A stretch of DNA of 64,000 bases from Deltaproteobacteria bacterium (GTDB lineage: Bacteria > Myxococcota > Myxococcia > Myxococcales > SZAS-1), in the NCBI GenBank assembly GCA_018266075.1, contig JAFEBB010000001.1, positions 124,001 to 188,000 of the forward strand, in the 5' to 3' direction. Below, piece after piece: positions 4,531-64,000 of the stretch (position 1 is its first letter; the number at the start of each line of letters is the position of its first letter). Made by a program: the position numbers and the translations under genes. A model generated the notes under the pieces. That model was not told the DNA's origin. It worked only from the letters and a program-made list of their open reading frames with translations, and searched no databases.

Positions 4531-6096
4531 ATGTCGTCCGCTGCCGTCACCCAGCTTCCAGGAACCGTGCGACCGGCCGACGGCTCGCCGCTCGAGCCCG
4601 TCGCCGCCACGGCGCTCGCAGACATCCCGGGCATCGTGGCCAAGGCCCGCGCCGCCCAGCCCGCGTGGGCCGCGCTCCCGCTCGACGCCCGCGCGGAGAA
4701 GGTCCGTCAGCTCGGGCGCGCGCTGCTCGAGAAGCATGCAGAAGCCGCGAAGATCATGGCCGCGGAGATGGGCCGCAGCGAGCTCGAGTGCATCGGCGAC
4801 GAGATCATGGGCGCCATGGAGTTCACCACCTCGGCCATCGGCGTGGCGAAGATCGCGCTCAAGCCGGTGAAGGTGCCCATCAGCAAGCTCGACTACCCCG
4901 GCAAGCGCGCCGTCATCGAGGCCGTGCCGCGCGGCGTGGTGGGCATCATCGCGCCGTGGAACTACCCGCTCGGCAACTTCTTCAAGCACCTGTTCCCCAC
5001 CCTGCTCGCGGGCAACGCCGTGGTGCTCAAGCCTTCGGAGCACACGCCGCGCACGGGCGCTTGGCTGGCCAAGGTCTGCAGCGAGATCTTCCCAGCGGGG
5101 CTCGTCGGCCTCGTTCAGGGCCGCGGCGACGCGGGCCAGGCCATCCTCGAGGCGGGCATCGACGCCATCTGCTTCACCGGCTCGGTGGCGACGGGCAAGC
5201 GCGTGTCGGCGGCCGCAGGCGAGCGGCTGATCCCGTGCAGCGTGGAGCTCGGCGGCAAGGACGCGGCCATCGTCCTCGCCGATTGCGACCTCGAGCGCAC
5301 CATCGCCGGCGTCGCCAACTGGAGCGTGTTCAACGCGGGCCAGGACTGCTCGTCGATCGAGCGCGTGTATGTGGAGGCGCCCATCGCCGACGCGTTCGCG
5401 ACGCGCATCGGCAAGTTCGTGGGCGCGCTGCGCGTCACGCCGGATCCCATGGCCGACATCGGCACCGTGCAGAACGCGCGGCAGCTGGAGATCATCGAGG
5501 CGCACGTGAAGGACGCTGTCGAGAAGGGCGCCAAGCTCCTCTGCGGCGGCGCGCGCACCGGCCAGGGCTTGGGCTTCCAGCCCACCGTGCTCGACGGCTG
5601 CACCGAAGAGATGCGCATCCTGCGCGAGGAGACGTTCGGCCCTGTCGTCTGCATCCGCCGGGTAAAGGACGCCGACGAGGCCGTGCGCCTGGCGAACGAC
5701 TCGCCTTACGGCCTCAACGGCTCGGTGTGGACGACGGACATCCCGCGCGGCGAAGCCCTCGCGCGCAGGCTCGAGTGCGGCGTGGCGGTGGTGAACAACC
5801 ACTCGCTCGCGGGCATCAACCCCTGGATCCCGTGGACCGGCGTGAAGGACACGGGCCCGGGCGTGGCGAACAGCGTCTTCGCGTATCCCACGTACGTGCG
5901 TCGGCGCACGGTGTACGTGGACTCGTCGAAGCAGCCCGATCCCTGGTGGAAGCCGGTGGACGAGAACTTCGCCACCTTCTCGCAGCTGCTCATCCAGCGC
6001 GGGCTCACCGGCGGCATCGGCGTGCTGCTCAAGCTCGGCGGCCTGGTGGGCAAGCGCTCCAAGGCCATCCGCGCGGCTGCGCAGAAGACGGCGTGA
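4531..6096 (+). CDS. NAD(P)-dependent aldehyde dehydrogenase
   Basis: 521 residues of the ALDH superfamily, oxidising an aldehyde to the acid. Visible motifs are [21 protein letters not shown] (cofactor and oxyanion region), [11 protein letters not shown] (nucleotide binding), ELGGKD (general base Glu about 239) and NAGQDCSS (nucleophile Cys about 273). The C-terminus adds an amphipathic Gly/Leu-rich tail ([16 protein letters not shown]) that may touch membranes. The substrate cannot be read from the sequence; succinate-semialdehyde-like or long-chain aldehydes are both possible. The stop overlaps the start of the next gene (GTGA), so the two are translationally coupled. Confidence 0.88.
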
Positions 6097-47516: not shown

Positions 47517-49091
47517 CTATGAGACCTCGAACACAGCCGAGCGTTCGAGGCCTGCGAGGATCTCCTCGTCCGTCTCAGCCTTCGAGGTCTCGTCCTCGAG
47601 CACTGCGATGGCCCCCGCCGCAGCGAGCTCTTCAGCCGTCACGACCGATGCGGTCCGCAACACGCAACATCCGCGGTCGAAGAGACATCGCTCGACCTCT
47701 TCTGCGCGCGTTGCTGACTCCACCCGCACCACCGCGCCGCCGTGGCCATACCGCTTCTTCCGCTCGGCGCTCGCGACCGGCGCGCGCACGCTGCTTCCTG
47801 CATGGGCCTGACGAATCATTCCGGCCGCGACCGTCTCATTGCTGCGCGCATCCACGAGGATGAACGCGCCCGTTCCCGGCGAGTCGCGATACGCATCCGC
47901 GAAGATCGGCCGCTGGCAAGCGATCCGCACCTGGGCGATGTCGTTCTTCTCCAGCGCGCTCGCAGCCACGAGCTCCAGCGACTCCAAATCCACCCTGCCC
48001 TGCACCTCCGCGATGCGCGCGCGCACGCGGCGCGCGGTGTGCTTGAGCACGAGCTCGCGCGAACCGTCGAGCGGCCCATCGCCCATCCACACCAGCGTGG
48101 CCTCGAGATCCGTCGCAACCGTGGGCGCCGTCGCTGCATGCGCGAGGAGCTCACCACGGCTCAGATCAATCTCTGAATCCAACCGGACCACGACCGACTG
48201 CGGCGCGCTCGCCTCCTGAAGCGTGCCATCGAACGTGTCGATCGCACGGACGCGGGACCGCTGTCCCGAAGGCAGCGCGACCACCTCGTCGCCAATTCTC
48301 AACCGGCCCGACGCGAGCTGCCCCGCGAAGCCGCGGTAGTCGAGGTTTGGGCGCACGACCAGTTGCACCGGAAAGCGCATCGGCCTCGAACTTGCCGAGC
48401 GGCCGATGGCGACCGTCTCGAGGTACTCCATCAAGGTTGGGCCGGAATACCAGGGCGTCTTCACACTTCGTTGAACGACATTGTCGCCCGCCGTCGCCGA
48501 GATCGGGATGGGCGCGACCTCTTGAAACCCGAGCGTCGCGGCGAACTTGGCAAACGTCTCAACAGTCTTATCGAATATCTCGCGTTCAAACCCGACGAGA
48601 TCCATCTTGTTGATGGCGACCACGAGCCGCGGGATCCCCAGCAGCGATGCGATGTACGCATGACGCCGGCTCTGCGTGAGCACGCCAAGCCGCGCATCGA
48701 TCAGGATCACGCCGACATCCGCCGTCGACGCCCCGGTGGCCATGTTGCGCGTGTACTGCTGGTGGCCGGGCGTATCCGCGATGATGTACTTGCGCTTCTT
48801 CGTCGAGAAGTAGCGATGCGCGACGTCAATCGTGATGCCCTGTTCGCGCTCGGCACGAAGCCCGTCGGTGAAGAGCGAATAGTCGATCTCGCCGCCCTGC
48901 TTCGACGCGCGCTTCACCGCGGCGACCTGATCTTCATAGACGCCATTGCCCTCGAAGAGCAGGCGTCCGATGAGCGTCGACTTCCCGTCGTCGACCGAGC
49001 CGACCACGACGCATCGAACCAACTCCTTCTGCTCGTGCTCGGCCAGCTTGGCGATGACCTCCGAGTCCGGATCCGTGATGGCGGCGTGCAT
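47517..49091 (-). CDS. cysN: Sulfate adenylyltransferase subunit 1 (GTPase) with vestigial kinase-like tail
   Basis: 524 residues. With CysD it forms APS from sulfate and ATP, driven by GTP hydrolysis. GTPase motifs are GSVDDGKSTL (G1), DTPGHQQYT (G3), INKMDLVG (G4) and SATAGDN (G5). Two elongation-factor-like beta barrels follow to about 440. The last 85 residues start ERKKRYGHGGAVVRVE and LFDRGCCVLRT, which lines up with the opening and first helix of APS kinase (CysC) but lacks the GLSGSGKST P-loop between them. The ATG overlaps the cysD stop by one base. It is the last gene of the sir operon. Confidence 0.9.
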   Translation of the reverse strand: MHAAITDPDSEVIAKLAEHEQKELVRCVVVGSVDDGKSTLIGRLLFEGNGVYEDQVAAVKRASKQGGEIDYSLFTDGLRAEREQGITIDVAHRYFSTKKRKYIIADTPGHQQYTRNMATGASTADVGVILIDARLGVLTQSRRHAYIASLLGIPRLVVAINKMDLVGFEREIFDKTVETFAKFAATLGFQEVAPIPISATAGDNVVQRSVKTPWYSGPTLMEYLETVAIGRSASSRPMRFPVQLVVRPNLDYRGFAGQLASGRLRIGDEVVALPSGQRSRVRAIDTFDGTLQEASAPQSVVVRLDSEIDLSRGELLAHAATAPTVATDLEATLVWMGDGPLDGSRELVLKHTARRVRARIAEVQGRVDLESLELVAASALEKNDIAQVRIACQRPIFADAYRDSPGTGAFILVDARSNETVAAGMIRQAHAGSSVRAPVASAERKKRYGHGGAVVRVESATRAEEVERCLFDRGCCVLRTASVVTAEELAAAGAIAVLEDETSKAETDEEILAGLERSAVFEVS

Positions 49092-49999
49092 CAGAAGTAC
49101 CCCTCGCGCTTCTTGGTCTCCATCGACGCCTCTTCGTCGTGATCGATCATCCGGCCCTGGCGCTCGGAGACCTGCGAGGCAAGCATCTCGTCGATGATTT
49201 GAGGAACGGTGACCGCGCTCGAGAGCACAGCGCCCGAGAGCGGATAGCAACCCAGCGTGCGGAAGCGAATCCGACGCACCACGGGCTGCTCCCCAGGACG
49301 CAGGCGCATCCGCTCGTCGTCCACCATGATCAGGTTGCCGCCCCGCTCCACCACGGGCCGCTCGGCGGCAAAGTACAAAGGCACAATGGGAATGCGCTCG
49401 AGCCAGAGGTAGTGCCAAACATCGAGCTCGGTCCAATTGGACAATGGAAAGACGCGCAGGCTCTCGCCGGGATCCACGCGCAGGTTGAACAGATTCCAGA
49501 GCTCCGGCCGTTGATTCTTCGGATCCCACTGACCGTGGCGATCGCGGAACGAGAAGATGCGCTCCTTCGCGCGCGACTTCTCCTCGTCACGGCGCGCACC
49601 GCCGAAGGCCACGTCATAGCCGCCCTCGCGAAGCGCCTCGAGGAGCGCCTGGGTCTTCATCGCGTGCGTGTACTTCTGGCTGCTGTCGTCGAAGGGGTTC
49701 ACCCCCTCGGCGAGCGCCTTCCGATTGGTGTGAATCCGCAAGTCGAGCCCGTGCTGCCTCGTGAACGAGTCGCGAAACTCGTACATGGCGCGGAACTTCC
49801 AGGTCGTGTCGATGTGCAACAGCGGAAATGGAACCGGTGCGGGATGAAACGCCTTCCGAATCAGGTGCAGCAGCACCTGCGAGTCCTTGCCGATGCTGTA
49901 CAGAACGATCGGCTTCTCGGCCTCTCCTGCGACCTCGCGGATGATGTGAATGCTCTCGGCCTCGAGCTGCTGAAGGTGAGTGAACCGCGGGGCGCTCAT
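49091..49999 (-). CDS. cysD: Sulfate adenylyltransferase subunit 2
   Basis: 302 residues, the usual length. It is the catalytic subunit of ATP sulfurylase, with the PP-loop [16 protein letters not shown] and the family blocks [41 protein letters not shown] and [16 protein letters not shown] precedes the ATG, which overlaps the cobA stop by four bases (ATGA). Its own stop overlaps the cysN start (TGATG), fixing the 1:1 order cysD-cysN. Confidence 0.95.
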
Positions 50000-50757
50000 G
50001 AGTAGGCCTCCTCGGCAGTCGACGCGACGCCGAGCTGCTCCAACTGCTCGCGCAGCGCCACGACTTCTCCGACCACCAGCAGCGCCGGCGTGCCGACGTC
50101 CGCGGCTTCGGCGAGCAGAGCCACGCTCGCGAGCGTGCCCTGCACGACGCGCTGGTGCGCCCAGGTGCCCGCTTCCACGACGGCTGCCGGCGTCGACGGG
50201 GCGCGTCCCTGCTCGACGAGCTTCCGAGTGGCCTGTCGCAGCTTCTTCCCCGACATGAAGAGCACGAGCGTCGGCGACCGCGCGAGGTGGGCCCAATCTG
50301 GCTCGGCGCCCGAGAGCGACGCCGTCGCGAACGTGACCGCCGCGGAGATCCCGCGGTGCGTGATGGGAATGCCCGCGCTCGCCGGCGCCGCGACACCACT
50401 CGAAACGCCCGGCACAACCTCGAACGGAATGCCGGCGCGCACGAGCTCGAGGGCCTCTTCTCCGCCGCGCCCGAACACGAACGGATCGCCGCCCTTGAGC
50501 CGCACCACGCGTCGACCGAGTCGCGCCTGGGCGATCAGCGTGGCGTTGATCTCCTCTTGCGCGACCTGCTCGCCGCCTCCGGACTTACCCGCAAAGATGA
50601 GCCGCGCGTGCGCGCGTGCGTGGCGAAGGATGTCCGGATGCACCAGGCGGTCGTAGACGACGGTGTCCGCCTCACGGAGAAGCTCGGCCGCGCGCAGCGT
50701 GAGCAGCCCCGGGTCACCCGGGCCAGCGCCGACGAGATACACAATTCCATGGTTCAT
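49996..50757 (-). CDS. cobA: Uroporphyrinogen-III C-methyltransferase
   Basis: 253 residues. It uses SAM to methylate uroporphyrinogen III to precorrin-2, the first step to siroheme. Motifs are [64 protein letters not shown] and the late [15 protein letters not shown] lies before the ATG at 50757, which overlaps the sirC stop by four bases. In this operon it supplies the siroheme used by Sir. Confidence 0.93.
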
Positions 50758-51431
50758 CGTTCCACCTCGCTGAGCCCCGCACTCGCCGAGTCGAGAAGCG
50801 TCGCCAGCCGGCTCCGCCAAATCTGTCGAATCGCGCGCCAGAGCTCGCGCTTGCGCCCCATGGCGATGAGCTCGGCAGCGCCGGCGTCGATCACAGCCTG
50901 GAGCTTGGCCGCGCGATCGGGCCCTCCGGGCGTGAGCTCCCGCAGCCGCCCGAGCAAACGCGCGAGCGTCCCGAACTCTTCGCCGATGGCCACCATCGCT
51001 CGCTTGCGCAGGAAGCGCGCGAGAGCCGGCGCGCGTCCGGAGGTCGAGACGGCGACGGTCACCGGTCCGCGACGGCCGATGGAGGGCATCGTGAAATCGC
51101 AGAGCTCGGGCACGTCGGCAGCGTTGACGAGAATCCTTCGCGCGCGGGCCTCAGCCACGACCGATCGGTTCACCTCGGGTACTTCAGCCGCCGTGAACAC
51201 GAGAAACGCGCCGGCACAGTCGCCACTCCGGTACTCACGTTCGACGAGCTCGATCCGACCCGCGTCAGCGAGCGCGCGGAGCTCGGGCGTGACCTTCGGG
51301 TCAATCACGCGAACCTGAGCGCCCACCTCGAGCAGCTGCGCCAGCCGGCCCTGCGCGATACGCCCACCGCCGACGAGCACCACGCTTCGCTCTTCGAGCT
51401 GCAATGCAATCGGAAAATCGTAGGTACTCAT
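50754..51431 (-). CDS. sirC: Precorrin-2 dehydrogenase / sirohydrochlorin ferrochelatase-like (SirC/CysG N-terminal type)
   Basis: 225 residues. The Rossmann motif VVLVGGGRIAQGRLAQLLEVGA binds NAD, and VNAADVPELCDFTMPSIGRRG is the family core that oxidises precorrin-2 to sirohydrochlorin. The helical C-terminal dimer domain is present. In CysG the same domain also inserts iron; whether this stand-alone form does so is open, and no other chelatase is in the window. Both ends overlap neighbours by four bases. Confidence 0.88.
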   Translation of the reverse strand: MSTYDFPIALQLEERSVVLVGGGRIAQGRLAQLLEVGAQVRVIDPKVTPELRALADAGRIELVEREYRSGDCAGAFLVFTAAEVPEVNRSVVAEARARRILVNAADVPELCDFTMPSIGRRGPVTVAVSTSGRAPALARFLRKRAMVAIGEEFGTLARLLGRLRELTPGGPDRAAKLQAVIDAGAAELIAMGRKRELWRAIRQIWRSRLATLLDSASAGLSEVER

Positions 51432-52300
51432 GAGCTCGCCTCGGCCGGCGCGAGGATCTGTGCCCGGGCGAGCTTGAAGTAGCGCCAGAGGAGCACGCCC
51501 TCGAGCACCACCGTCGCGGCCACGAGCGAATAGCCGAGCACCGCAGCGACGAGGTGCTGGTCGATCAGCACGCGCGCGAGACCAAAGCTGACCAGCAGCG
51601 CGTCCGAGCCCATGCAGGCTCGCCGGAAGGTCTCATTGGGGAGCTTTCGCAGCACGAGGAACCCGAGCGGAATGCCGATGAGCACGCCCGGCGCAGCGAT
51701 GCCCGAGAGCCGAATGCTCTCGCCCGTGAACAACCCAGCTGACCCGTAGAGTCCCGCCGCCAGGATCGACTCCGCAATCCGGAACAGGCTCAATGCCGCG
51801 CGGAAGTTCTCTTTTGTATAGCCCTGATTATTGAGAAGCAGAGCCAATGGCGGCCCGGAGATCGTCGTCGCCGCGTAGAGCGCGCCCACCCCAGCGCCGA
51901 GCGGCACGCCTGCCACGACCTCGCGCTTGAGCGGCCAGCGCACACCGGCCGTCTGCAAGACGATCAGCGGCAGGAGCACCGCGTAGGTCGCAATTCGTAA
52001 GGTCGCATGTCCCGTCTGCGCGAGCGCGAAGGTGCCCAGCACGGCGCCCGGCACCAGGCCACCCAGCATGGGCAACATCCGTCGCCAGATCGCCGGGACC
52101 GCCCGGATGTTCACGAGCAGCGCCACGAAGTTGATGAAAACCTCGACGAGCACCAGCGCGGGGCTCAAGAGCTTGTTGGAGAAGAGCAGCAACGCCAGCG
52201 GCACGGTGATGGCCGAGAACCCGTAGCCGAGGCCGCCATTCACCAGGGCAGCCACGAGGGTAATGAGGGCAAACAGAAGATCGATGTCGGTCAGGTGCAT
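51428..52300 (-). CDS. TauE/SafE-family sulfite/sulfonate permease
   Basis: 290 residues with about eight hydrophobic segments in two halves, each with a Gly-rich signature (ALVNGGLGYGFSAITVP, GVPLGAGVGALYAATTISGPPLALL), as in the DUF81/TauE family. Members move sulfite, sulfoacetate, sulfate or related anions. Its place between cysH and sirC argues for sulfate or sulfite transport across the inner membrane. Direction cannot be told from sequence. It starts 12 bases after cysH. Confidence 0.85.
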   Translation of the reverse strand: MHLTDIDLLFALITLVAALVNGGLGYGFSAITVPLALLLFSNKLLSPALVLVEVFINFVALLVNIRAVPAIWRRMLPMLGGLVPGAVLGTFALAQTGHATLRIATYAVLLPLIVLQTAGVRWPLKREVVAGVPLGAGVGALYAATTISGPPLALLLNNQGYTKENFRAALSLFRIAESILAAGLYGSAGLFTGESIRLSGIAAPGVLIGIPLGFLVLRKLPNETFRRACMGSDALLVSFGLARVLIDQHLVAAVLGYSLVAATVVLEGVLLWRYFKLARAQILAPAEASS

Positions 52301-52312
52301 GTGTTCCTCGGA

Positions 52313-53029
52313 CTAGCGCCTCGCGTGCAGCCCGCACTCCTTGTGCTCGGGCTGCTCCCACCACCAGCGTCCGGCCCTGGCGTCTTCGTACGGCTTCACC
52401 GCGCGAGTACACGGCGCGCAACCAATCGAGGAGAAGCCCACATCGTGGAGCGCGTGGTACGGCACGCGGTTCTGTCGAATGTGGTTCCACACATCGGCTT
52501 CGGTCCACGCGGCGAGCGGATTGAGCTTCCAGATTCCATTCTGCGAATCGTCAATCTCGATGACTTCGACACCCGCGCGCGTCACCGACTGCTCGCGTCG
52601 CAGCCCGGTCACCCACGCCTCACGGCCAGCGAGCGCGCGTTTGAGAGGCTCGACCTTTCGAATGGCGCAGCACGCCTTTCGCTGCTCGAGGCTCTCCCGA
52701 AACGAGTACAGCCCCTGCTCGCTCTCGAGCTTCTCCACGCTGGCGCGCTCGGGCGCGTACACGCGCAGGTTGATTCCATAGCGCTCGCGGATGGCCTGCA
52801 TCACTTCGTACGTCTCGGGATGTAACCTTCCGGTATCAAGCGTAAAGACCTCCAACTTCGGCGTGACGCGCGAAGCGAGATCGATGAGCGCCACGTCCTC
52901 CGCGCCGAAGCTCGAGGCGAGGACTGCCCGAGCCCCAAAGCGCGCCCACGTCCAGGCGAGGATGTCGGGCGCGGATCTTCCTGCCAGCTCGGCGCGCGCA
53001 GCCGAGAGCTCGTCGAGGGCGGCGCTCAC
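52313..53029 (-). CDS. cysH: APS reductase, iron-sulfur type
   Basis: 238 residues from GTG 53029, chosen because it overlaps the sir stop (GTGA) and has GGGGAG at 8 bases; a GTG at 53038 is too close to that site. The enzyme reduces adenylyl sulfate to sulfite with thioredoxin. The PP-loop region SSFGAEDVALIDL, LDTGRLHPETYEVM, and the cluster ligands KACCAIRKVEPL and GCAPCTRAV (CC plus CxxC) mark the [4Fe-4S] APS form rather than PAPS reductases. The C-terminal Cys is in KECGLH. Confidence 0.93.
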   Translation of the reverse strand: MSAALDELSAARAELAGRSAPDILAWTWARFGARAVLASSFGAEDVALIDLASRVTPKLEVFTLDTGRLHPETYEVMQAIRERYGINLRVYAPERASVEKLESEQGLYSFRESLEQRKACCAIRKVEPLKRALAGREAWVTGLRREQSVTRAGVEVIEIDDSQNGIWKLNPLAAWTEADVWNHIRQNRVPYHALHDVGFSSIGCAPCTRAVKPYEDARAGRWWWEQPEHKECGLHARR

Positions 53030-54765
53030 TGGGCGCACTCCCCGTCCATGTCCACGACCTGGAACTCGACGTTGCTTCCGAGGTCGATGAAGTCGTCGGG
53101 CTTGGCGTCGGCCTCTTTGAGCTCGATCAGATCCGCGAGCAGTTGCTTGGCGACGGGAATCTCCAATCGCTGGAAGTACGCGCGCGCGGTCTCTCCAGGC
53201 GTCCGATTCGCGTCGAAGTGTGCAATCAGCCGATCAATGGCTTCAGGCACGCGCCGCGCGGGAACCTTGCCCACGAGCCGTCCGAAGGTGGCGCCGCGCA
53301 CGTCGATGCCGCCGCCAATCATGACGAAGTACTGGGGCACCAACTTCGTCCCCACGTGCCGCGTGCCGCCCTGGAGCCCAATCGCAGAGACATGGTGCTG
53401 CCCGCAGCCGTTGGGACAGCCCGAGACCTTGATGTCGAGGCCTTCTCGTCGCAACGCACCGTGCTTCTCGCGCAACCGGTCGCCCACGAGCTGGGCCACG
53501 CCACGAGAAGCGGTCACCGCGATGCGGCAGGTCTCTGCGCCCGGGCAGCTCACGACATCGGACGTCGAGCCTGCGTGCGGCTCGCCAAGGCCCACGGCGT
53601 CGAGGTCGAGCCAGAGCGCAGGCAGGTCCTGCTCGCGAATCCAGCGGATGAGCAGGTTCTGATCATTCGTGGTGCGCAGCGTCGCGTCGCCGTACTTGGC
53701 AACGATGTCGGCGAGCGCGCGCAGCTGCCGGCTCGAGACATCTCCAAGTCGCAGCCAAACGGCGACTGCACAGTATCCCTCCTGGCGCTGCGGCCGTGCG
53801 TGCGCCCGCTTCCAGTCGGTGAAGCGAGTGGGCATCGGCCGCTCCACGCGCGGAAGCGGCGCCTTGTTGGGCGGCTGCTCGTCGGTCGCTTCAACAGGCA
53901 GCGGCCGCCCGCCCTCCTTTCGAATGAGCTCGAGCTGCTCTTCATAGAGCGCCTGGAACTTCTCCCAGCCCAGGCGCTTGATGGCCCACTTCATCCGCGC
54001 CTTTTGCAAGTTGCCGCGCTCGCCCTCGGCGTTGAAGACACGTGCAATCGCCTCGCACGACGCGAGCAGCTCCTCGGCGGGCAGGAACTCGTGCAGCACG
54101 CCGGCGTTGCGCGGCAGCGTGCTCGTGCCGCCACCGGCGACGATCTTGAACCCGCGAACGCCCTCGCGAACGCGGCCAATGATGCCGATGTCGTTCATGG
54201 CGCCCTGGGCGCAGTCGTCGTCGCAGCCGGAGATCGCAATCTTGAACTTGCGCGGCAAGCCAGAGCCGTAGGGCCGTCGCAGGAAGTGGCGCGTCACCAT
54301 CTCGCCGTAGGGCGTCACGTCGAACGCCGCGCCGCTGCACACGCCCGCGTACGGGCAGCCCGCGACATTGCGCACGGTGTGCGAGCACGCCTCGCGCGTG
54401 GTCAGCCCGCTCCGCGACACCGCTTCCATGAACGCCGGCGCGTGCTCCGTCTTCACGAAGTGAAATTGAAAGTTCTGCCGCGTGGTCACGTGGCCGAACC
54501 CACGCGAGTACTTGTCGGCGCAATCGGCGAGCACCACCAGCTGCTCGGCGCTGAGCACGCCTTGCGGGATCTTCACGCGCACCATCTGCACGCCGTCCTG
54601 GCGCTGGCCGTAGATGCCGCGGCTCAAGCGGTAGTGGCGGTACTGGTCACTGGTCAGCTCGCCGCGCTCGAACTTCTCGAGCATCTCCACGAACTCGGCG
54701 GACTCGGCGGCGTCACCGAAGCTCTCGCGGCTGCGGCTGTCGTTGGCTTCCGGTCTTGCGGTCAT
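53026..54765 (-). CDS. sir: Assimilatory sulfite reductase hemoprotein (ferredoxin/NirA-like)
   Basis: 579 residues of the nitrite/sulfite reductase hemoprotein family. It reduces sulfite to sulfide with six electrons. The two ferredoxin-like halves each have their core (VTTRQNFQFHFV; TTNDQNLLIRWI). The [4Fe-4S]-siroheme ligands are SCPGAETCRIAV and SGCPNGCGQHH. Its context with cysH and siroheme genes supports sulfite over nitrite. The ATG at 54765 has GGAGG upstream. Transcription must pass the attenuator at 54781-54823. Confidence 0.92.
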   Translation of the reverse strand: MTARPEANDSRSRESFGDAAESAEFVEMLEKFERGELTSDQYRHYRLSRGIYGQRQDGVQMVRVKIPQGVLSAEQLVVLADCADKYSRGFGHVTTRQNFQFHFVKTEHAPAFMEAVSRSGLTTREACSHTVRNVAGCPYAGVCSGAAFDVTPYGEMVTRHFLRRPYGSGLPRKFKIAISGCDDDCAQGAMNDIGIIGRVREGVRGFKIVAGGGTSTLPRNAGVLHEFLPAEELLASCEAIARVFNAEGERGNLQKARMKWAIKRLGWEKFQALYEEQLELIRKEGGRPLPVEATDEQPPNKAPLPRVERPMPTRFTDWKRAHARPQRQEGYCAVAVWLRLGDVSSRQLRALADIVAKYGDATLRTTNDQNLLIRWIREQDLPALWLDLDAVGLGEPHAGSTSDVVSCPGAETCRIAVTASRGVAQLVGDRLREKHGALRREGLDIKVSGCPNGCGQHHVSAIGLQGGTRHVGTKLVPQYFVMIGGGIDVRGATFGRLVGKVPARRVPEAIDRLIAHFDANRTPGETARAYFQRLEIPVAKQLLADLIELKEADAKPDDFIDLGSNVEFQVVDMDGECAQ

Positions 54766-54780: not shown

Positions 54781-54823
54781 CAAAAAACAAGAAGGCCCGC
54801 CTCCTTTTCGGGGGCGGGCCTTC
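54781..54823 (-). terminator. Attenuator hairpin of the sir operon leader
   Basis: On the minus strand GAAGGCCCGCC (54823-54813) and GGCGGGCCTTC (54801-54791) form a perfect 11-bp stem with an 11-base loop, followed by TTGTTTTTTG (54790-54781). It lies between the Cys leader ORF and the sir ATG, so it can stop transcription before the operon. The 5' arm can alternatively pair with GGCGGG at 54879-54874 inside the leader ORF. Confidence 0.85.
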
Positions 54824-54848: not shown

Positions 54849-54953
54849 TTAGGCGAAGTCTCCCGGTGCTCGTCCCGCCGGACGGCAGCAGCAACACGCA
54901 CAGCAGCAGCAGGCCGCGGTGTGGTCGAAGCTGGTAGCGGAGACGGTTCGCAT
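54849..54953 (-). CDS. Cysteine-run leader peptide of the sir operon
   Basis: 34 codons plus TAA. The peptide begins MRTVSATSFDHTAA, has CCCCACCCC at residues 15-23 and ends RPAGRAPGDFA. Eight Cys codons in nine are TGC or TGT. There is no Shine-Dalgarno, and the ATG is only about 5 bases after the predicted transcription start, so it may be translated as a near-leaderless ORF. The product is unlikely to act as a protein. Stalling at Cys codons when charged tRNA-Cys is low would change folding of the RNA downstream. A second copy of the design lies at 63156-63260. Confidence 0.88.
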   Translation of the reverse strand: MRTVSATSFDHTAACCCCACCCCRPAGRAPGDFA

Positions 54954-54964
54954 CAGGAGCCCAA

Positions 54965-54994
54965 GGAATACGCAGCTCGCACGCGCTGCGTCAA
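54965..54994 (-). promoter_or_regulatory. Sigma-70-type promoter of the sir operon
   Basis: TTGACG (54994-54989), 18-base spacer, TATTCC (54970-54965), then 11 bases to the leader ATG. The same spacings occur at the second leader. Confidence 0.7.
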
Positions 54995-55045: not shown

Positions 55046-56395
55046 CTATCCCACCTTCATCGGCCGGCCCAGCTCTTCCCAGTCGTTCATCCCGCCGCGC
55101 ACGGCCTTCACCTTCTCGTAGCCTTGCGCCTTGAGGAGCAGCAGCGCCGTGAGCGAGCGCTTTCCGGACGCGCAGATGGTGACGAGCGGCTGGTCGTGCC
55201 GCGCCGGAAGGCCTGGCGCCCCGGCTTTGGAGAGCGTCCCCACGGGCACGTTCACCGCCTCGGCGATGTGGCCCTCCGCGAACTCGCGCGGCGAGCGCAC
55301 GTCGATGAGCGCGGCTCCGCCCTTTACCAGATCCGCAATCGCGTCGAGCTCCACCATGTCCGCCGACTCGCGCGCGAGATCCTGGATCGCCGAGAGGATC
55401 TCCGGCGTCGGTCCCGACGACGATGCGGGCTTCGGCGCGTCATCCGCCGACCCCACGAAGAGCTGGGGCAGGTGCTTCTTGAACGAGCCGCTGTACTTGA
55501 AGGCATTGTCCGGGAACATCACCACGCAGATGTTGCCCGGCTCATCGGGCACCAGCTTCAGCGCGCCCGCGAGCGCCATGCCCGAGCTCGGCCCGGCGAT
55601 GATGCTCTCTTCCTGATTCAGGCGCCGCGCCATTTCATAGGCTGTCGCGTTATCGATTTCGACGAGCCCGTCATACTCTTTAGGCAAGAAGAAGTCGGTC
55701 AACTTGAGCGCGCGCAGCGTGCGCACGCCGGGGATGTCGTGCCCCTCGGCAGGGTGCACGCCGAAGACCTTCACGTCCTTGCGCTGCGTGCGCAGGAAGC
55801 GCCCCGTGCCGGTGATGGTGCCGCAGGTGCCAAGCCCGGCCACGAAGTGGGTGATCTTGCCCTCGGTCTGCTTCCACACCTCCGGACCCGTGGTGCGGAA
55901 GTGCGCGTCCGGATTTGCCGGATTCTTATATTGATTGAGCTCGTGCCAGCCAGGCTGCTTCGACATCTCCTCGGCCTTCGACATCGCGCCTTCGGGCTGT
56001 CCCGGCATCGGGCACAGGTCGTCCGAGAGCTCCACCAGCTTCGCGCCGAACATGCGCAGGCTGGCGCGCTTCTCCGCGGGGATTGCGGTCGAGAGCGTGG
56101 CCGTGAACTCGATGCCCTTGGCGTTCGAGATCATCGAGAGCCCGATGCCGGTGTTTCCCGAGGTCGGCTCCACGAGGTGCTGGAGCTTGATGCCCTGCTC
56201 TTCCGCGTCGCGGATGAGGTTGGCGGCCACGCGATCCTTCACGGCGCCGAAGGGGTTGTACCACTCGAGCTTGGCGTAGACCTTCGTGTGCTTGAACGGC
56301 ACCACGCGGTTGAGCCGCACGATGGGCGTGGGGTTGTCGGCGTTCGACAGCATGTCGAGCATCGAGTCGTAGACGCGCTTGGAAAAGTCAGTCAT
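55046..56395 (-). CDS. Cysteine synthase/cystathionine beta-synthase fused to rhodanese
   Basis: 449 residues. Residues 1-325 are a fold-type II PLP enzyme: WYNPFGAVKDRVAAN (Schiff-base Lys), EPTSGNTGIGLSM (substrate loop), GLGTCGTITGTGRFL (phosphate cradle) and GPSSGMALAGA. Residues about 350-449 are a rhodanese domain with LIDVRSPREFAEGHI and the active loop ICASGKRS (Cys nucleophile). The PLP part would join sulfide with O-acetyl- or O-phosphoserine. The rhodanese could deliver or remove sulfane sulfur. AGGAG precedes the ATG. Confidence 0.87.
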   Translation of the reverse strand: MTDFSKRVYDSMLDMLSNADNPTPIVRLNRVVPFKHTKVYAKLEWYNPFGAVKDRVAANLIRDAEEQGIKLQHLVEPTSGNTGIGLSMISNAKGIEFTATLSTAIPAEKRASLRMFGAKLVELSDDLCPMPGQPEGAMSKAEEMSKQPGWHELNQYKNPANPDAHFRTTGPEVWKQTEGKITHFVAGLGTCGTITGTGRFLRTQRKDVKVFGVHPAEGHDIPGVRTLRALKLTDFFLPKEYDGLVEIDNATAYEMARRLNQEESIIAGPSSGMALAGALKLVPDEPGNICVVMFPDNAFKYSGSFKKHLPQLFVGSADDAPKPASSSGPTPEILSAIQDLARESADMVELDAIADLVKGGAALIDVRSPREFAEGHIAEAVNVPVGTLSKAGAPGLPARHDQPLVTICASGKRSLTALLLLKAQGYEKVKAVRGGMNDWEELGRPMKVG

Positions 56396-56468
56396 GTGCG
56401 GCTCCTGCAAATTCGTAACGTCGGCCTTGCATCAGGTCGCGGAGGTGCGAGGGCGAGACGTTGGGCAT
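56388..56468 (-). CDS. Possible 26-codon upstream ORF of the cysteine synthase gene
   Basis: MPNVSPSHLRDLMQG then RRYEFAGAAHD, with GAAGGGCGG upstream. Its stop lies 5 bases inside the cysteine synthase start (ATGACTGA overlap), so translation of the two would be coupled. It is the first ORF after the predicted promoter. It is not Cys-rich. It may be a regulatory leader or simply chance. Confidence 0.4.
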   Translation of the reverse strand: MPNVSPSHLRDLMQGRRYEFAGAAHD

Positions 56469-62168: not shown

Positions 62169-62636
62169 TCAGCCGCACGTCTCGGGCTTGACCTCGGACG
62201 TCACCTCGAATGCCGGCTGCGACTCCGGCACGACGCGCTCGAAGAGGGAGTGCGCAACCATCCCCACGGCCATCGCGGCCACGAAGAGCAGCGCCGCAGG
62301 GCAGCCCGCACCGAAGGCGACGATCCCCGGGCCCGGGCAGAAGCCGCCCAGTCCCCAGCCGATGCCGAAGATCGCCGCGCCTGTCACGAGCCGCGTGTCG
62401 ATGCCACGCGCAGCCGGCTCGGCGAATGAGGCGGCGAGCAGCGGTCGCTTGGGCGCGAGCAGACGCATCACCGCCAGCACCGCCAGCCCGGAGCCCATCA
62501 CCAGCGCCAGGCTCGGGTCCCAGCTGCCGGTGACGTCGAGGAAGGCGAGGATGTTGGCGGGCAGGGTCATGCCCGAGACCGCGAGCCCCACGGCGAAAAG
62601 GAGCCCACTCGCAAACGCCACGATCAGGTTCTTCAC
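62169..62636 (-). CDS. YeeE/YedE-type sulfur transporter, second half (DUF6691-like)
   Basis: 155 residues. The GTG start overlaps the stop of the first half (GTGA). It has four or so membrane segments (LIVAFASGLLFAVGLAVSGM, GAAIFGIGWGLGGFCPGPGI, AALLFVAAMAVGMVAHSLF) and Cys in GGFCPGPG and GAGCPAALL, as in the second repeat of YeeE proteins. The polar tail holds a final Cys. With the upstream subunit it should form one pore for a sulfur species such as thiosulfate. Confidence 0.85.
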   Translation of the reverse strand: MKNLIVAFASGLLFAVGLAVSGMTLPANILAFLDVTGSWDPSLALVMGSGLAVLAVMRLLAPKRPLLAASFAEPAARGIDTRLVTGAAIFGIGWGLGGFCPGPGIVAFGAGCPAALLFVAAMAVGMVAHSLFERVVPESQPAFEVTSEVKPETCG

Positions 62637-63076
62637 GCGGCACCTCCCAGCGCGTGCCGCAGCACGAAGACGGCCACCATCCCCAGCGCCATGAACACCA
62701 GCGTGGCCACGATGGAGCGCCCCGAGAGCCGACTGATGCCACAGAGCCCGTGGCCGCTGGTGCAGCCGCTGCCGAGCCGCGTCCCGAAGCCGACGAGCAA
62801 TCCCGAGGCGATGAGCAGCGCGCTCGAGTGCGGCACGTCCCAAGTGAAGAAGCGCGGCGCGAGCCGGCTCAGCACCAGACCGCCGAGCGCGAGCCCGCCG
62901 AGGAAGGCGCTGCGCCAGGGCAGGTCCGGGCGATCGAGCTCCAGCACGCCGCCGAAGATCCCGCTGATGCCCGCGGCGCGACCGTTGAGCACCCACAGGC
63001 CCGCGACCGCCAGGCCGGTGAGCACGCCTCCCACGGCCGCCGGGACCAGGTGAGATGTAACCGTTGGGTTGAGCAT
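62633..63076 (-). CDS. YeeE/YedE-type sulfur transporter, first half
   Basis: 147 residues from ATG 63076 (AGGAG at 8 bases). It has membrane segments AAVGGVLTGLAVAGLWVLNG, FLGGLALGGLVLSRL, SSALLIASGLLVGFG and IVATLVFMALGMVAVFVL. The family signature is GTRLGSGCTSGHGLCGISRLS, with the Cys used in YeeE/TsuA to pass thiosulfate. Single-chain YeeE proteins are about twice this length; here two genes encode the halves. It is expressed after a Cys leader peptide. Confidence 0.88.
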   Translation of the reverse strand: MLNPTVTSHLVPAAVGGVLTGLAVAGLWVLNGRAAGISGIFGGVLELDRPDLPWRSAFLGGLALGGLVLSRLAPRFFTWDVPHSSALLIASGLLVGFGTRLGSGCTSGHGLCGISRLSGRSIVATLVFMALGMVAVFVLRHALGGAA

Positions 63077-63089
63077 CGATTCGACTCCT

Positions 63090-63128
63090 GAAACGCAGAA
63101 GGCCCGCCTCCTCGTGGGTGGCGGGCCT
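63090..63128 (-). terminator. Attenuator hairpin of the YeeE operon leader
   Basis: On the minus strand AGGCCCGCC (63128-63120) and GGCGGGCCT (63108-63100) pair over 9 bp with an 11-base loop, followed by TCTGCGTTTC. The stem and the AGGAGGCGGGCCTTCT string match the sir attenuator, but the U-tract is weaker. Confidence 0.72.
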
Positions 63129-63155
63129 CGGGGTCCTTCGGGATTCGCTTTGCGG

Positions 63156-63260
63156 TTACGCGAAAGGTCCCGATGCCCGGCCCGCCGGCCAGCAACAGAG
63201 ACACGCACAGCAGCGACAAGCCGCGGTGGAGCCCTTGCTGGTGGCGGAAACGGGAGTCAT
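63156..63260 (-). CDS. Cysteine-rich leader peptide of the YeeE operon
   Basis: 34 codons plus TAA. It begins MTPVSATSKGSTAA, has CRCCACLCC at residues 15-23 and ends WPAGRASGPFA. It aligns without gaps to the sir leader: VSATS, TAAC, CAC, CC, PAGRA, G and FA are shared. Six of nine central codons are Cys. There is no Shine-Dalgarno, and the ATG is 11 bases from the -10. The same reading as for the sir leader applies, namely a sensor of cysteine supply. Confidence 0.87.
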   Translation of the reverse strand: MTPVSATSKGSTAACRCCACLCCWPAGRASGPFA

Positions 63261-63271
63261 CGGTTGCTCAA

Positions 63272-63301
63272 AGGCTAGGTGGCGCGTCGGCCTGGCGTCA
63301 A
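63272..63301 (-). promoter_or_regulatory. Sigma-70-type promoter of the YeeE operon
   Basis: TTGACG (63301-63296), 18-base spacer, TAGCCT (63277-63272), then 11 bases to the leader ATG. This is the same geometry as the sir promoter. Confidence 0.68.
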
Positions 63302-63348: not shown

Positions 63349-64000
63349 TCACAGCGGCAACACGCCTTCGGCCGCCTCCATCAGCTTGAGGCGACGCTGG
63401 GTGATCGGGCTGGAGCCGTCGATGAGCGCCTTGGTCTCCTCGAGCACGCGCGCGAGCGGGAAGCGCTGCACGGAAGGATCGAGCGTCTTCGTGCCGCCCT
63501 CGACCTGGGGCTGCCACGAGACCATCTCGTCGGTGCAGCCCGAGAGCAGCGCGCTCACCGCGCCGAGCGCGAGGCGGCTCGCGACCATGCGGTCGAGGAA
63601 GCTCGGGTTGCCGCCGCGCACCACGTGCCCCAGCACCGTGCCGCGGATGTCGACGCCGAGGTCTTTGATCTTCTCATCCACCTCGCGCACCAGCTTCGTG
63701 CACGGCACCTCCACGCCCTCGGCCTTGATGATCAGCACGCGCCGCTTGCCGCGCTCGGCGAAGGCGTGCCGCACCAGCTTCACCGTCGCCTCCACGATCT
63801 CCGACTCGGCGCGCCCCTGCTCGCGGATGAGCGCGGCGTCGGCGCCGGCGGCGATGGCGCTGGCCATGGCGAGGTAGCCGCAGTCGCGGCCCATCACCTC
63901 GACCACGAAGGCGCGCTTGTGGGCGCGCGCGGTGTCGGCGATGCGGTCGCAGGCCTGGACGATGGTGTTGAGCGCGGTGTCCACGCCGAGGCAGGTGGAG
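63349..64000 (-). CDS. pfkA: 6-phosphofructokinase, 3' part
   Basis: The last 217 residues; the 5' end is beyond the right edge. LGVDTALNTIVQACD is the fructose-6-phosphate site region, FVVEVMGRDCGYLAMASAIAAGAD is the MGR motif that binds substrate, and ILGHVVRGGNPSFLDR-like TVLGHVVRGGNPSFLDR is the family QRGG-type block. It phosphorylates fructose-6-phosphate in glycolysis. ATP versus pyrophosphate use is decided in the missing N-terminal part. About 90 bases separate it from the leader promoter. Confidence 0.88.
   Translation of the reverse strand, partial: STCLGVDTALNTIVQACDRIADTARAHKRAFVVEVMGRDCGYLAMASAIAAGADAALIREQGRAESEIVEATVKLVRHAFAERGKRRVLIIKAEGVEVPCTKLVREVDEKIKDLGVDIRGTVLGHVVRGGNPSFLDRMVASRLALGAVSALLSGCTDEMVSWQPQVEGGTKTLDPSVQRFPLARVLEETKALIDGSSPITQRRLKLMEAAEGVLPL

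Follow-up and report, generated by a model that had tools for sequence, protein, structure and literature searches.

A putative cysteine-specific transcription attenuator upstream of a split YeeE-type transporter, and its paralogue upstream of sir, in a member of the Myxococcota

The window, that is, the whole 64,000-nucleotide stretch analyzed here, comes from the genome of Deltaproteobacteria bacterium GCA_018266075.1 (contig JAFEBB010000001.1, positions 124,001 to 188,000). Near its right end, two adjacent reverse-strand genes encode the halves of a YeeE-type transporter, and the GTG start of the second gene overlaps the stop codon of the first. This yee pair is preceded by a hairpin and a short open reading frame (ORF) rich in Cys codons, the yeeE leader, an arrangement already described in the first-pass annotation (Table 1). 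A paralogous ORF, also followed by a hairpin, lies in front of a sulfate-assimilation cluster that begins with sir. Directly upstream of this sir leader is the gene for a cysteine synthase-rhodanese fusion, an enzyme that would fit the use of zero-valent or thiosulfate sulfur. Upstream of the yeeE leader lies a phosphofructokinase gene (63349-63999, minus strand), apparently a separate unit.

Table 1. Coordinates of the two leader regions and of the genes associated with them.
Feature	Position	Strand	Details
Candidate promoter, yeeE leader	63272..63301	-	TTGACG (63301-63296), 18 nt, TAGCCT (63277-63272); read directly
Leader ORF before the yee pair	63156..63260	-	34 codons; MTPVSATSKGSTAACRCCACLCCWPAGRASGPFA, then stop
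Sensing region of the yeeE leader	63192..63218	-	6 Cys codons in 9, residues 15-23
Antiterminator strand	63179..63186	-	GGCGGGCC, inside the PAGRA codons; sequence of the terminator 3' arm
Antiterminator inner hairpins	63138..63173	-	TCGGGA/TCCCGA and TTCGC/GCGAA; apical loop contains the TAA stop codon
Intrinsic terminator, yeeE leader	63099..63129	-	GAGGCCCGCC...GGCGGGCCTT; weak T tail (CTGCGTTTC); -23 kcal/mol
PmpA/YedE1-type half YeeE transporter	62633..63076	-	Sulf_transp, PF04143, C-terminal half; GCTSGHG motif, Cys105
PmpB/YedE2-type half	62169..62636	-	PF20398 DUF6691, N-terminal half; GGFCPGPG Cys
Cysteine synthase-rhodanese fusion	55046..56410	-	directly upstream of the sir leader
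Candidate promoter, sir leader	54965..54994	-	TTGACG, 18 nt, TATTCC
Paralogous sir leader ORF	54849..54953	-	34 codons; MRTVSATSFDHTAACCCCACCCCRPAGRAPGDFA, then stop
Terminator, sir leader	54791..54823	-	strong T tail (TTGTTTTTT); -27 kcal/mol
Sulfite reductase (sir)	53026..54765	-	first gene of the sulfate-assimilation cluster
Remainder of the cluster	47517..53038	-	cysH, TauE-like, cysG N-terminal-domain-like, uroporphyrinogen-III methyltransferase, cysD-like, cysN

The two leaders align end to end without gaps, as the first-pass annotation had stated, with identity at 24 of 34 residues (18 of the 26 non-Cys positions) and at 75 of 102 nucleotides; a further 25 of 42 nucleotides are identical in the region 5' of the ORFs. 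Shuffling of the non-Cys residues gave p = 5e-5 for this match, and tblastn with the yeeE leader against the whole genome retrieved the sir leader with E = 1.8e-6. The claim that both leaders carry six Cys codons in a common nine-residue interval holds for the yeeE leader; the matching interval of the sir leader contains eight. The shared VSATS, TAAC, PAGRA and FA residues had also been read as a sign of homology, but the conservation of PAGRA and FA is largely a matter of RNA pairing (see below). The conclusion of common descent is unaffected, because the two leaders also agree in promoter, ORF frame, spacing and terminator; comparison of the sequences thus supports a common ancestor rather than chance.

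The yeeE and sir leaders are the sole two copies in this genome. Beyond the sir leader, the tblastn search yielded no other real copy, its next matches being chance frames inside other genes; neither the weak matches (C32, C44 and others) nor an exact occurrence of TGCTGTGCGTGT at C18 is a leader. A covariance model scored the two leaders at 134 and 128 bits, the yeeE leader slightly below the sir leader, and nothing else in the genome above 33 bits; the two next-best places are without a Cys ORF. The whole-genome scan that had been proposed as a check therefore turned up no copy before unrelated genes. None of the cysteine-synthase-type genes of this genome has a Cys leader of its own, and neither the window nor ten related loci reached the gathering score of any Rfam leader family.

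A consensus promoter scan made no call for the leader promoters, which are too weak for it. Candidate boxes can nevertheless be read in front of both ORFs, and the ATG of the yeeE leader lies 11 nt past the -10 box. Across the leaders with a visible promoter, TTGAC is separated from the ATG by 29-35 nt, with TA-containing boxes 17-18 nt on. From this spacing we would expect a 5' untranslated region of about 0-6 nt. Since, in addition, no Shine-Dalgarno sequence is visible before the ATG of either window leader, transcription probably begins at or very near the ATG, which would recall the leaderless ORFs of mycobacteria.

Downstream of both window leaders lies a GC-rich hairpin built on GGCCCGCC/GGCGGGCC. 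Directly 3' of the Cys run, the PAGRA codons read GGCGGG(CC), and this strand can pair with the 5' arm of the terminator because it is identical to the 3' arm. When the 3' arm was omitted from folding, both window leaders formed an antiterminator around two stacked hairpins, with the stop codon in the apical loop. Blocking the bases around the stop codon, to mimic a ribosome that terminates there, left the terminator in place in both. Computationally, therefore, a mutually exclusive antiterminator with one strand inside the leader is present. The minimum-energy structure of the yeeE leader varies with the segment folded.

RNAalifold on a MAFFT alignment of the leaders gave no consensus structure because the inner helices were misaligned, and the structures were therefore compared one by one. 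In this comparison all 14 aligned myxobacterial leaders showed the nested antiterminator, with the stop codon inside the apical loop or adjacent to it. The inner helices change in sequence and keep their pairing (TTCGC/GCGAA, CGAGAAG/CTTCTCG, GGGAGAG/CTCTCCC, CTCCGC/GCGGAG), and the inner helix of the yeeE leader is likewise unlike that of sir with its pairing intact. Folding energies were significant against dinucleotide shuffles for most leaders (p = 0.005 for yeeE), with a combined p = 8e-10 for seven representatives. Because the region is GC-rich, the bare count of leader:terminator base pairs was not significant for most single leaders (p = 0.15 for yeeE) and gave a combined p of only 0.006. 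Both combined values overstate independence, since the representatives are homologous. No conserved protector (1:2) hairpin was identified in the leaders folded.

One could suppose that the leader serves to make its peptide, a small protein rich in cysteine that binds metal or sulfur, as the Cys content and the conservation between the two copies might suggest. We find this hardly credible. The codons of PAGRA and FA form the antiterminator and the inner hairpin, so that their conservation is largely explained by the RNA and provides no argument for a peptide function. Across relatives, the Cys cluster and the RNA pairing are kept and the remaining peptide changes. Moreover, NCBIfam contains no family matching the leader peptide, and the ORF stands directly before a terminator and cysteine genes.

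We then turn to the distribution of such leaders in the phylum. A covariance model built from four leaders was run over 195 genomes of Myxococcota, and the matches were read individually. Homologous Cys leaders stand before cysH at 14 loci, before cysK-type genes at 8, before sir at 3 and before cysK plus sir at 1; one further locus preceding cysH (L233) was left out of the count because its leader region is masked. Several genomes carry both a cysH and a cysK leader, and among the covariance loci read no Cys leader preceded any gene besides cysH or cysK. Upstream of sir we found the leader MVRVDALAYPAAAQRCRCACRQGAAPEFAAS in the Myxococcaceae MAG SSF41 (G048, JAIBBQ010000170.1), and MSAFASSCCCCCACPVRALAGREPVTSA with a terminator in G149. 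In G007, MYALASTRLTIDSAACCCACACPSVADRAPESSA and a terminator precede a cysteine synthase-rhodanese gene (L180), 61% identical to the fusion beside sir in the window, and sir itself follows further downstream; this leader came from a promoter-plus-Cys pattern search that otherwise gave mostly chance matches. The cysK leaders carry CCCC or CCCCC, so that the number of Cys codons varies by whole codons, as expected of a translated frame. At six cysH loci of Myxococcaceae (L251, L253, L254, L256, L270, L289) the leader-terminator units are in tandem, for instance MTHSHTPTAAPFASRCCPSCTCCRQPDLGC followed by MTFTADARVPRSPVLPAGGDDACATGGACCLCRACPECPPAGGCRASRSV at L270. They lie about 100 nt apart, from the first stop codon to the second ATG, and the second unit has no visible promoter of its own.

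Two groups of matches in relatives were set aside: tblastn hits L009-L029, mostly antisense frames of ABC-transporter genes, and weaker covariance matches (L225, L227, L232, L236 and others), which are other leaders or plain terminators and not Cys leaders. The four named here, from Myxococcaceae, have Val/Leu-rich leader ORFs (e.g. VEVLVVVLVAVLLLALLLAQGAGPPF) with similar terminators and are probably branched-chain amino-acid attenuators.

Outside the phylum, 80 loci of sir relatives in GTDB were searched. Sulfate-assimilation genes of several MAGs, Acidobacteria among them, are preceded by poly-Cys ORFs with terminators (e.g. MVSPACCCCCCCRPTRPTGGSGLGGFIE), the contigs concerned being L097, L113, L098, L100, L101, L103, L105, L128 and L138. 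Complementarity between leader tail and terminator 5' arm was above that of shuffles (combined p = 7e-5 for 14 leaders, related ones included). The sequences of these leaders show no apparent relation to those of myxobacteria, and such leaders may therefore have arisen repeatedly. At L098 the poly-Cys ORF lies 3.7 kb before sir, and its direct target is thus another gene. Contig L103 carries, besides its poly-Cys leader, a SAM riboswitch (5912-6032, 78 bits), so that sulfur amino-acid metabolism has two unlike RNA sensors close together there.

Taken together, we consider it highly probable that the yeeE leader works as a transcription attenuator of the trp/his type, specific for cysteine and mediated by the ribosome. 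Clustered Cys codons in an ORF, an intrinsic terminator, a mutually exclusive antiterminator and homology to leaders of cysteine-biosynthesis genes were all found, and from these we infer translation, stalling, regulation and the transport of a sulfur source for cysteine. According to this model, RNA polymerase would start a few bases before the leader ATG and a ribosome would translate the 34 codons, the six clustered Cys codons sensing the supply of charged Cys-tRNA. With enough cysteine, the ribosome would reach the stop codon in the loop of the inner hairpin and break that hairpin; the GGCCCGCC/GGCGGGCC terminator would then form, and transcription would stop before the transporter genes. 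When cysteine is scarce, the ribosome would stall in the Cys run and leave the adjacent GGCGGGCC in the PAGRA codons free to pair with the terminator 5' arm around the inner hairpins. No terminator would form, and the PmpA/PmpB-type importer would be made.

Control by cysteine could instead be exerted at the level of translation or via Rho: ribosomes that stall in the Cys codons would expose a ribosome-binding site or shield the RNA from Rho, and the hairpin would be incidental. In favor of this, the poly-Cys leaders of mycobacteria work with no intrinsic terminator (PMC1262725; Canestrari 2020 as summarized in PMC9031893), the yeeE terminator has a weak T tail, and the G048 leader lacks a clear terminator. 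We regard this mode of control as improbable here, given that almost every other leader is followed by a terminator-like hairpin with a T tail and that the antiterminator strand is conserved. In addition, the Shine-Dalgarno-like CAGGAG (63090-63085) lies outside the terminator hairpin, which argues against a purely translational mechanism.

Judged by its sequence, the yee pair is a member of the split PmpA/PmpB (YedE1E2) subfamily. Its half-length YeeE genes lie next to each other, and each subunit has one conserved Cys (Cys105 and about Cys100 here, vs Cys104 and Cys101 in PMC10812762). In that report, YedE1E2 imported zero-valent sulfur and required each of its conserved Cys residues, whereas full-length YedE3 did not import it (PMC10812762). 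PmpAB, for which a heterodimer was proposed, was predicted not to serve assimilation (PMC11582611). In the two Myxococcaceae relatives examined, the yee pairs have metallo-beta-lactamase, rhodanese or TauE neighbors, and among 30 yeeE loci in relatives, the present one included, only the present one has a Cys leader directly upstream.

This singular position would suit a yeeE leader that is a non-regulating remnant of a duplicated sir attenuator, the transporter being expressed constitutively or from another promoter; so would its slightly lower score, its two fewer Cys codons and its weaker T tail. We nevertheless judge a remnant quite improbable, even more so than control by translation or Rho, because its frame and Cys cluster are unbroken, as are the terminator and antiterminator, and because the inner helix differs from that of sir in sequence and still pairs. 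For a functional attenuator, the unusual placement of the yee pair behind a cysteine leader points to imported sulfur being used for cysteine. Homologous leaders have sir, cysH or cysK as their targets, and it is by this association alone that the yee pair is joined to cysteine metabolism. As these are the only genes that such leaders precede among the loci read in relatives, the membership of the pair in a cysteine regulon, proposed by the first-pass annotation, is well supported by the sequence comparison. That its cargo is a sulfur source for cysteine is a reasonable reading and is put no more strongly, because PmpAB is reported as a zero-valent-sulfur importer and predicted to be non-assimilatory.

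Since the yeeE and sir leaders share one ancestor, we propose that sulfate reduction and sulfur import answer one signal. We also lean, with less assurance, towards a wider picture: a myxobacterial cysteine 'ribulon' in which one family of terminator-bearing leaders, partly in tandem, would govern cysH, cysK and sir, and which in this lineage would have captured a PmpAB zero-valent-sulfur importer, making a detoxification-tied transporter assimilatory. The little-understood split YeeE (PmpAB) transporters would thereby be tied to cysteine supply by a regulatory signal, and the leader may be used as a search tag for more cysteine-supply genes. In Myxococcota such attenuation may govern the central steps of cysteine synthesis, and in Acidobacteria leaders of unrelated sequence may do likewise. 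As far as we found, a leader/terminator switch before cysteine genes is apparently undescribed across myxobacteria: open-licence papers contained no report of cysteine attenuation by a leader peptide in Myxococcus, and subscription journals may carry earlier ones. For a classical terminator and antiterminator responding to cysteine, the one report that we came across is a prediction for cysS in a single order of Alphaproteobacteria.

That prediction concerns uORFC-8-2 before cysS in Rhodobacterales, for which ribosome-mediated attenuation was proposed (PMC8632094). It resembles the present leaders in that its upstream ORF contains Cys codons and an intrinsic terminator comes next, but has only two Cys codons, targets cysteinyl-tRNA synthetase and is confined to Rhodobacterales. 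In mycobacteria, leader peptides with Cys runs were predicted before cys operons, without terminators (Seliverstov 2005, PMC1262725), and subsequent work showed cysteine-responsive regulation by them (Canestrari 2020, doi 10.1111/mmi.14498, as summarized in PMC9031893 and PMC13236596). There, too, a Cys run is carried by a short ORF upstream of cysteine genes, leaderless in mycobacteria and perhaps so here, and several operons of one genome share a poly-Cys leader. In the mycobacterial leaders no intrinsic terminator is obvious, and control is via translation or perhaps Rho, whereas here a terminator stands behind both window leaders together with an antiterminator, and the targets include a sulfur importer. 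PmpA/PmpB (YedE1E2) pairs elsewhere are likewise two adjacent half-size YeeE genes with one conserved Cys each (PMC10812762, PMC11582611), but lie near persulfide dioxygenase or sulfur-detoxification genes, and some Myxococcaceae relatives have comparable neighbors; here the pair stands alone behind a probable cysteine attenuator. With the classical trp, his and leu attenuators, the myxobacterial leader has in common the sensing codons, an antiterminator overlapping the leader ORF and a terminator. No conserved protector hairpin was seen in the leaders folded. Unlike the classical attenuators, the myxobacterial leader would sense cysteine, and it places its stop codon in the loop of a hairpin nested within the antiterminator.
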